Positions 42,601 through 44,060 of a stretch of 64,000 bases of DNA are shown piece by piece. Position 1 is the first letter of the stretch. Every line of letters starts with the position of its first letter. Source of the DNA: Janthinobacterium lividum (GTDB lineage Bacteria; Pseudomonadota; Gammaproteobacteria; Burkholderiales; Burkholderiaceae_D); the NCBI RefSeq assembly GCF_034424625.1, contig NZ_CP139976.1, forward strand, positions 620,001 to 684,000. The letters are read 5' to 3'. The translations under genes were made by a program, and so were the position numbers. The notes under the pieces are model-generated. The model was not told the DNA's origin. It saw nothing but the letters and a program-made list of their open reading frames with translations, and did no database searches.

Positions 42601-43848
42601 GTACCGTACGGTGCGACCCTGATCGTCAAGGACGGCATGGTCATCAAGGCCGGTACGGCCCTGGCAACGTGGGATCCGCTGACCCGTCCGATCATTACCG
42701 AATACGCCGGTCAAGTGCGTTTCGAGAACGTCGAGGAAGGCGTCACCGTAGCCCGTCAAGTCGACGAAGTGACCGGTCTGTCCACCCTGGTGGCGATCGA
42801 TGCGAAACGTCGCGGTTCGTTGACGAAAACGTTGCGTCCGCAAGTCAAGCTGATCAACGACGCGAACGAAGAAGTCAAGATCGCCGGCACCGAACACTCG
42901 GTGGCGATCGGCTTCCAGGTCGGCGCGCTGATCATGGTCAAGGACGGTCAACAGGTATCGGTTGGTGAAGTGCTGGCACGTATTCCTACCGAATCGCAAA
43001 AAACGCGCGATATTACCGGTGGTCTGCCACGCGTTGCGGAACTGTTCGAAGCGCGCTCGCCGAAAGATGCCGGTATGCTGGCGGAAGTCACGGGTACGGT
43101 TGCGTTCGGTAAAGAAACCAAGGGCAAGCAGCGTCTGGAAATCACGGACATGGACGGCAACAAGCATGAGTTCTTGATCACCAAGGACAAACAAGTGCTG
43201 GTGCATGACGGCCAAGTCGTGAACAAGGGCGAGATGATCGTGGACGGCCCGGCCGATCCGCAAGACATCCTGCGCCTGCTGGGTATCGAAGCGCTGGCAC
43301 GTTACATCGTTGACGAAGTGCAAGACGTGTACCGTCTGCAAGGCGTGAAGATCAATGACAAGCACATCGAAGTGATCGTGCGTCAGATGTTGCGCCGTGT
43401 TCAGATCGTCAATGCGGGCGACACCAACTACATCGTTGGCGAGCAGGTTGAGCGTTCGGAACTGCTGGACGAGAACGATCGCATGGCCGTTGAGAACAAG
43501 ATTCCAGCGACCTACGAAAACGTCTTGTTGGGTATTACCAAGGCATCGCTGTCGACCGATTCGTTCATCTCGGCCGCATCGTTCCAGGAAACCACCCGCG
43601 TGCTGACCGAAGCGGCGATCATGGGCAAGCGCGATGGTCTGCGCGGCCTGAAAGAGAACGTCATCGTCGGCCGCCTGATTCCTGGCGGTACGGGCCTGGC
43701 CTTCCACCGCGCACGCAAAGAGAAAGAAGCGTGGGAAGTGGAAGAGCGTCAAGCACTGCTGCTGGCCGAGAAGGCCTCGATGGCTGGCGAAGCTGCCGAA
43801 GCGCTGCAGGACATCGAAACCCAGCAACACCACGGCGACGAAGCGTAA
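39607..43848 (+). CDS. rpoC: RNA polymerase subunit beta'
   Basis: 1413 residues. The N-terminal zinc site begins C70-L-C72 and the active-site loop N458-A-D-F-D-G-D-Q-M466 carries the three magnesium-binding aspartates at the same numbers as in E. coli. The second zinc site is [12 protein letters not shown]. The C-terminus reads through A-W-E-V-E-E-R-Q, a segment that is partly repeated after the stop. A strong terminator follows. Confidence 0.99.
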
Positions 43849-43870
43849 TCTACGCTGCTAGCTGACAAGA

Positions 43871-43896
43871 ACGGCACCTGCGGGTGCCGTTTTTTT
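43871..43896 (+). terminator. Rho-independent terminator after rpoC
   Basis: ACGGCACC (43871-43878) pairs with GGTGCCGT (43883-43890) around a TGCG loop, followed by six more T residues. It ends the ribosomal protein-RNA polymerase operon. Confidence 0.93.
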
Positions 43897-43920
43897 ATGC
43901 GCGCTGCCGTAATTTGCACC

Positions 43921-43992
43921 GGTAAATTGCACCGAATACGCAAAGAGCTAGCAGCGTGGGAAAGTGAAGAGCGTCAGTTGCCACGCTGCTAA
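43921..43992 (+). pseudogene. Degenerate duplicate of the rpoC 3' end
   Basis: Reading from 43921, the frame gives G-K-L-H-R-I-R-K-E-L-A-A-W-E-S-E-E-R-Q-L then P-R-C-stop. This matches rpoC's [17 protein letters not shown]. At DNA level, 32 of 38 bases agree between 43714-43751 and 43939-43976, by hand alignment. There is no start codon or ribosome site. It is followed by a second terminator sharing the GGTGCCG-T7-ATGC end of the first. This is most simply a partial tandem duplication with an internal loss of about 60 bp. Confidence 0.8.
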
Positions 43993-44025
43993 AGGGGAAT
44001 CGGCTACCTCGGCAATTAATAATCA

Positions 44026-44060
44026 CGGTACCTGGGAGAAATTCCTGGTGCCGTTTTTTT
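44026..44060 (+). terminator. Second terminator, copy of the rpoC terminator
   Basis: CGGTACC-T-GGGA (44026-44037) pairs imperfectly with TTCC-T-GGTGCCG (44042-44053) around a GAAA loop, with seven T residues after it. Its 3' arm and tail (GGTGCCG-T7-ATGC) match the terminator 165 bases upstream. Confidence 0.85.

Follow-up and report, generated by a model that had tools for sequence, protein, structure and literature searches.

In the window (the whole stretch of 64,000 nucleotides of Janthinobacterium lividum DNA that was analyzed), an open reading frame matching annotated rpoC is followed by a terminator, a partial and decayed second copy of the rpoC 3' end, a second terminator, and a conserved downstream neighbor (Table 1). 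The location of the frame downstream of an rpoB-sized open reading frame (35288-39484) also appears to back its identity as rpoC. Long open reading frames run antisense on the minus strand through nearly all of rpoC (1402 aa; 39625-43833) and nearly all of the rpoB-sized frame (1325 aa; 35417-39394), and are probably a by-product of codon bias. Positions of rpoC-end copies are given relative to the last base of the stop codon, which is position 0.

Table 1. Features at and behind the 3' end of rpoC in the window.
Feature	Position	Strand	Basis
rpoC (RNA polymerase beta' subunit, 1413 aa), source gene	39607..43848	+	ORF call
rpoC end (about 49 codons and stop), segment recurring in extra copies	43698..43848	+	
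First (main) rpoC terminator, short type	43867..43897	+	fold -19.9 kcal/mol, z -5.5
Decayed second copy of rpoC positions -146 to -97	43927..43976	+	40/50 matches
Inverted repeat within decayed copy	43949..43991	+	fold of 43940-44000 = -24.4 kcal/mol, z -4.4
Second terminator, long ancestral type	44025..44060	+	fold -18.3 kcal/mol, z -4.0
Conserved downstream neighbor, 210 aa	44558..45190	+	HTH matches below curated cut-off

The second copy matches rpoC bases 43702-43751 at 40 of 50 positions, 225 bases downstream of them. The sequence-only reading had reported 32 of 38 matches for the core of this alignment (43939-43976 against 43714-43751), a count that was reproduced and that extends to the longer match. 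The runner-up placements on the plus strand of the whole window reached 27/50 for the 50-base piece and 22/38 for the 38-base core, and the 50-base piece alone gave E = 1.6e-5 against the 6.76 Mb genome, so that the duplication stands far above background and a chance match is ruled out. The copy is partial, lacking the stop region and the central part of the tail, and its rpoC frame holds stops. Because the 3' arm of the inverted repeat, CCACGCTGCTA, is similar to the rpoC 3' UTR (ACGCTGCTAGCT), these missing parts appear to have been deleted. The inverted repeat itself seemingly arose at the junction of the 5' part of the copy with the remnant of the rpoC 3' UTR.

Forty genomes of the genus, including that of the window, were surveyed, and rpoC was matched in 38 of them (none in G014 and G053). 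Extra copies of the rpoC end (extras, as distinct from the main end belonging to rpoC itself) were sought with the tail of each genome as its own query, in 37 genomes in one survey and separately in G051, which is absent from the genus tree, the interval count, and the codon counts; inverted matches to the terminator alone were excluded. Extras were found in 15 of the 38 genomes, all within about 1 kb of the stop, and 23 genomes had none. A copy longer than 100 bases was present in 12 genomes, and two or more such copies in 7, with three or even more repeated ends in some relatives; the shortest traces were of 25 bases (G042), 39 bases (G002), and 50 bases (the window). The intact unit, of about 212 bases, comprises about 49 codons, the stop, the 3' UTR, the terminator, and a short spacer, and is repeated head to tail. 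The first extra started between -150 and -145 in 13 of the 15 genomes, and later, by BLAST, in G010 (-90) and G024 (-105). The genus therefore holds adjacent direct copies with a common breakpoint, as in partial tandem duplication. No further rpoC coding copies were found downstream within about 14 kb in 35 of 37 genomes, within 8.4 kb in G018, 6.0 kb in G001, and 1.9 kb in G051. Arrays longer than that of the window occur in single-contig genomes of other species (G004, G043, G045, and G050), which argues against assembly error, and an assembly artefact was rejected. With intact units of tail, stop, and terminator in relatives, the proposal of the sequence-only reading that the rpoC 3' end was partially duplicated in tandem together with its terminator is borne out.

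Two classes of extras were distinguished. Class-A extras share a diverged middle, DKATLAGETTEDLL-like, which was present in none of the 38 main rpoC tails of the genus; outside the genus, the best match to this block was of 31 bases (392 family genomes, two candidates scored in each), the block having been seen solely within the genus. Class-B extras (G009 and G011) are similar to their own mains and may represent a separate, later duplication, in which case the shared breakpoint could be a recurrence. Because no more than about 50 bases of rpoC survive in the window copy, its assignment to the genus array would rest on position, breakpoint, and terminator type, and not on the shared middle signature.

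The difference between a main and its own extra was 1-4% per bin from -30 to +45 (1-2% from +15 to +45) and as much as 35% in the middle. For nine class-A genomes, the distance in the 3' UTR between an extra and its own main was 0.025, against 0.098 for shuffled mains (0/5000 shuffles as low), in a test that ignores kinship and in which shared ancestry inflates tracking of the own main. Shuffles as low numbered 230/5000 for the last 30 coding bases, 4035/5000 for the hairpin block, 757/5000 for -90 to -30, and 2396/5000 for -150 to -90 in the same class. Clear tracking of the own main would then be confined to the UTR, with a weak signal immediately upstream and none in the other blocks. Agreement within genomes was also seen at the codon that follows ATC GAA: main and extra both have AGC in G050 and in G024, and both have ACC in G043, G004, and G020. 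That the 3' UTR follows the own rpoC points to recombination, which is read as homogenizing the stop and UTR region of main and extras. As to whether each extra began as a copy of the rpoC of its own genome, the 3' UTR follows that gene, and the middle has an older, shared divergence.

Two kinds of main rpoC terminator occur in the genus. The long kind (12/38 genomes) reads CACC AGGGAGAAATTCCT GGTG in G012, with variants in other genomes, and the short kind (26/38) consists of CACC, four loop bases (e.g., TTCG), and GGTG. The 26 short-type genomes formed one clade (support 0.86), with the window inside it and all 12 long-type genomes outside, in a tree of 37 genomes that was built from three short gene pieces, excluded the duplicated tail and G051, and was rooted by choice on G021. 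When the second terminator of the window was compared with 37 main rpoC terminators of the genus, it agreed with that of G012, a basal species, at 37/39 bases, against an 18-base match to the first terminator of the window itself. Its 3' arm and T-run equal those of the first at 20/21 bases, and to that extent the view that the second terminator copies the first stands; the 5' arm and loop, however, are of the long type of basal relatives, and the direction is reversed. Because the long type is the main terminator outside the short-type clade, and the second terminator of the window matches that of G012, the second is best read as the older relic and the first as the newer signal. A distal long terminator was present within 3 kb behind rpoC in 5 of the 26 short-type genomes (the window, G000, as well as G004, G017, G042, and G043). 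The order of a new terminator above and an old one below could stem from an in-place change of the main terminator. It is plausible that the second terminator would serve the operon as a second stop signal in the window.

The window copy is probably the decayed remainder of an old event within the genus in which the rpoC 3' end was partially duplicated in tandem. The duplicated segment would have comprised about the last 49 codons, the stop, the 3' UTR, and the terminator. After such a duplication in the history of the genus, copy number would have gone up and down through unequal recombination within the near-identical 3' block, with drift in the diverged part of the extras upstream of it, because it is rpoC itself that is under strong selection. 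The array of the window would have been left without cargo, that is, without genes between its copies, and with a possible role as a back-up terminator at most; it is most likely a cargo-free relic at an insertion-prone site.

Insertions are tolerated in the interval that follows the rpoC terminator. Among 37 genus genomes, the conserved neighbor was located in 36, at a distance of 164 to 6179 bases from rpoC, and was not found behind rpoC in G021. It lay 2.5-2.9 kb away in seven genomes (G041, G047, G049, G054, G007, G008, and G002), with no rpoC-end copies longer than 40 bases there, and 4-6 kb away in G012, G016, and G052. The interval of G041 (L167), the sole genus cargo scanned, held a FAD monooxygenase and a TetR-type regulator (Pfam); the reading frames in the interval of G002 looked the same, and that of G008 held a different frame of 537 aa.

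Less probable than plain duplication, and still a possible origin of the extras, is an insertion scar: DNA that brought in a new rpoC end, either alone or together with cargo, would have recombined one-sidedly and pushed the old end downstream, with later loss of the cargo. The left junction would be homologous, inside rpoC, and the right one illegitimate, as in homology-facilitated illegitimate recombination. The distal location of the ancestral terminator in the clade of the window agrees with this geometry, and so do several features of rpoC-end copies elsewhere in the family. In a census of 392 family genomes with a 551-base query, rpoC was matched in 351, and 313 of the latter lie outside the genus. 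Linked rpoC-end copies, downstream and on the same contig, occurred in at least 11 of the 313 (G145, G206, G268, G276, G344, G350, G382, G389, G398, G400, and G401), a lower bound in that two candidates were scored per genome. Two matches were found in 16 non-genus genomes, of which five were dropped because the second lay on another contig (G062, G124, and G203), was a split match (G371), or lay 225 kb away (G337). In the latter genome, rpoC and the DNA behind it occur twice (L208 and L209), alike where compared, representing a large duplication or an assembly error.

Spacing between main and copy in the family was 2-6 kb in 8 of the 11 genomes and below 1 kb in 3. The 5' ends of the copies varied from -239 to -699 (the latter being the edge of a 700-base query), and 9/11 reached the terminator region; both the spacing and the variable ends count in favor of an insertion scar. 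Another 40 single-match family genomes, picked from the listing and not at random, were examined over about 9 kb each, or over 5.4 kb in the case of G375, and had short traces alone (63 bases in G205, 34 in G277, and 32 in G222).

The cargo included defense genes by PADLOC or Pfam matches in G344, G389, and G268, and by weak matches in G382 and G398. In G344 (L210, 1119-6937), an AriA/AriB-like pair (Pfam, PADLOC) lay between rpoC and the first rpoC-end copy, followed by three consecutive genes matching PADLOC Hp1, Hp2, and Hp3 and then by a second rpoC-end copy. The cargo of G389 included GmrSD and HEPN domains, and that of G268 an AAA ATPase with NsnB as the best PADLOC match. In G206 (L202, 3614-9703), a type VI module with VgrG, PAAR, and a 535-aa protein whose match to ADP-ribosyl cyclase falls below the cut-off was bounded by rpoC and a 592-column rpoC copy. 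Curli genes were present in G400 and a TraB-family gene in G145. The cargo of G382 and G398 comprised HATPase or phosphoesterase genes, which PADLOC models matched weakly. The gene pair of G398 (L218, 3731-7529), a calcineurin-like phosphoesterase and an HSP90-like ATPase with weak defense-model matches, is a candidate for an unknown defense pair. No integrase or transposase family was found in 24 cargo proteins scanned with Pfam, a subset of the cargo open reading frames. This is in line with one-sided recombination, and the lack of a recombinase among those 24 proteins speaks against an integrase-driven island at the 3' end of the gene.

As for possible carriers of the tail among plasmids or phages, a plasmid search at the DNA level gave no match. 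Protein searches matched 67 plasmid and 19 phage records, many of which look chromosome-sized or host-contaminated, and no family member was present among the best 15 of the 67 plasmid records or the best 10 of the 19 phage records. Three viral contigs (L260, L261, and L262) carry an rpoC-like 3' end at their edge, beside phage-like genes; judged by their reading frames, they suggest host DNA beside prophages next to rpoC in other bacteria.

Flanking DNA divided the family cases. In G344, G268, G398, and weakly in G206 (68% identity), the DNA past the distal copy matched DNA located soon after rpoC in relatives, and the DNA past the main copy had no match among the same-genus relatives compared. 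This is the pattern that would be expected if cargo and a 5'-truncated rpoC end had been inserted between rpoC and its native downstream DNA. The reverse was found in G400, with native-like sequence after the main copy and none after the distal one, which detracts from the insertion scar; the remaining six of the 11 genomes were uninformative. G389 and G350 share about 85 bases past the distal copy, which is preceded by 2.0 kb in G389 and by 0.25 kb in G350; this suggests one old copy with changing content in front of it and thereby favors the scar. Further similarities of G401 to these two genomes, and among G145, G276, and G205, lie within rpoC-derived sequence and therefore cannot show common origin, leaving G389 and G350 as the one pair that bears on cargo turnover. 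In 10 of 12 comparisons, the extra was no closer to the nearest relative of the main than the main is, and looks like a decayed copy of the same lineage, which speaks against a scar; the exceptions, G398 and slightly G400, suggest a different source for the extra.

Within the genus, there is no cargo between copies, the breakpoint is nearly fixed, and the units are tandem, as plain tandem duplication predicts. The nearly fixed breakpoint and the tandem units favor plain duplication, and the terminator order and the four family cases favor one-sided recombination, which judged from the sequences compared is a plausible origin.

It is unlikely that the extras have been kept by selection as multiple terminators, strengthening termination behind a very highly transcribed operon. 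Extras long enough to include the terminator region have a hairpin and T-run, the second hairpin of the window still folds, and the small difference between main and own extra at +15 to +45, relative to that in the middle, would agree with such a function. However, the near-identity includes the last ten codons and the 3' UTR, which are unneeded for termination, the UTR follows the allele of the own main, and the majority of the genus genomes (23/38) do without extras.

A reservoir of alternative rpoC tails for exchange, resembling the orphan C-terminal modules of Rhs and CdiA toxins, is very improbable. The rpoC frame is open with a different tail (the DKATLAGETTEDLL type) in several extras, and there are signs of exchange with rpoC at the 3' end, but the middle block of the extras was in no main tail of the genus and matched 31 bases at best outside it, within the search scope given above, and extras of G045, G048, and G055 have frameshifts. 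Variable columns at codon positions 1, 2, and 3 (of 49 each) numbered 25, 20, and 24 in the extras and 2, 1, and 10 in the mains of the same ten genomes. The extras, by these counts, are free of coding constraint, and protein-coding units were rejected, as there was no codon-position bias. The idea raised earlier, that the extra copy could allow recombination that swaps the rpoC tail, consequently finds little support. Least credible is the idea that each unit gives rise to a small protein or a small RNA. An in-frame ATG follows the T-run in G043, G004, G017, and G020 (read by eye), but the ATG is out of frame or soon stopped in G045, G048, G050, and G010, codon-position bias is lacking, the rpoC frame of the window copy holds stops, and an Rfam scan of 43000-45000 gave no family at gathering score, its sole trace being a sub-threshold ctRNA match on the first terminator.

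Several known systems resemble parts of this locus. Minimal mobile elements of Neisseria consist of different genes between the same flanking genes, exchanged through homology of the flanks. The rpoC site likewise has varied genes between constant flanks, and differs in the partial duplication of a flank, which is not known to be a defining feature of those elements. The 178-base repeats at E. coli tyrT, associated with RtT RNA, repeat in tandem the 3' end of a strongly expressed gene together with the region downstream; they differ in belonging to a tRNA gene and not to rpoC, and the RtT model was unmatched in the Rfam scan of 43000-45000.

In effector-immunity arrays of the Vibrio type VI secretion system, as proposed in PMC5361080, an incoming module is anchored by upstream homology, the other end is illegitimate, and old 3' parts are shifted downstream. 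The distal ancestral-type terminator of the window and the four family cases would fit the geometry proposed there. Relative to that proposal, the rpoC site differs in that a core housekeeping gene would serve as the anchor, the tail of a gene with its terminator would be what is displaced, and the genus units are near-tandem and free of cargo. Core defense hotspots of Pseudomonas aeruginosa are described as variable defense cargo by conserved core genes with no obvious mobile element, and the authors, who regard the hotspots as enigmatic, suggest transfer through transduction and homologous recombination (PMC10250203). The rpoC site would resemble that description in having variable defense cargo beside a core gene, without an obvious mobile element; it differs in that rpoC is absent from the main text of that paper, and in that partial copies of the flanking gene persist as scars in the 11 of 313 family genomes. 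Merodiploidy by tandem duplication through transformation, during DNA uptake and recombination, is described in Streptococcus pneumoniae (PMC3784515). The likeness lies in the tandem duplication; the process as presented there needs repeats in donor and host, and the example given is 107.4 kb long.

No paper on duplication of the rpoC 3' end was found in the open-licence literature searched. The parts are of known kinds, namely partial duplication, illegitimate recombination, and core-gene hotspots, and their combination at rpoC was not found in that literature. A tentative and rather doubtful extension to the whole family is that the rpoC 3' end acts as a homology anchor for integrase-free gene capture. 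Incoming DNA would recombine inside rpoC, install a new end together with cargo (anti-phage or type VI genes), and displace the old end and its terminator; the duplicated ends would then serve as arms for swap or loss of cargo, and arrays such as that of the window would be empty, decaying footprints.

The question served is how accessory and defense genes enter fixed chromosomal sites without an integrase. If true, capture at rpoC would reveal how core-gene defense hotspots get built. The scars at this site, partial copies of the end of an essential gene, preserve the relative age of the two ends and, outside the genus, the content inserted between them. The short arrays of rpoC ends, with the 3' UTR in step with an essential gene and the rest drifting, offer a natural test of gene conversion under strong selection.
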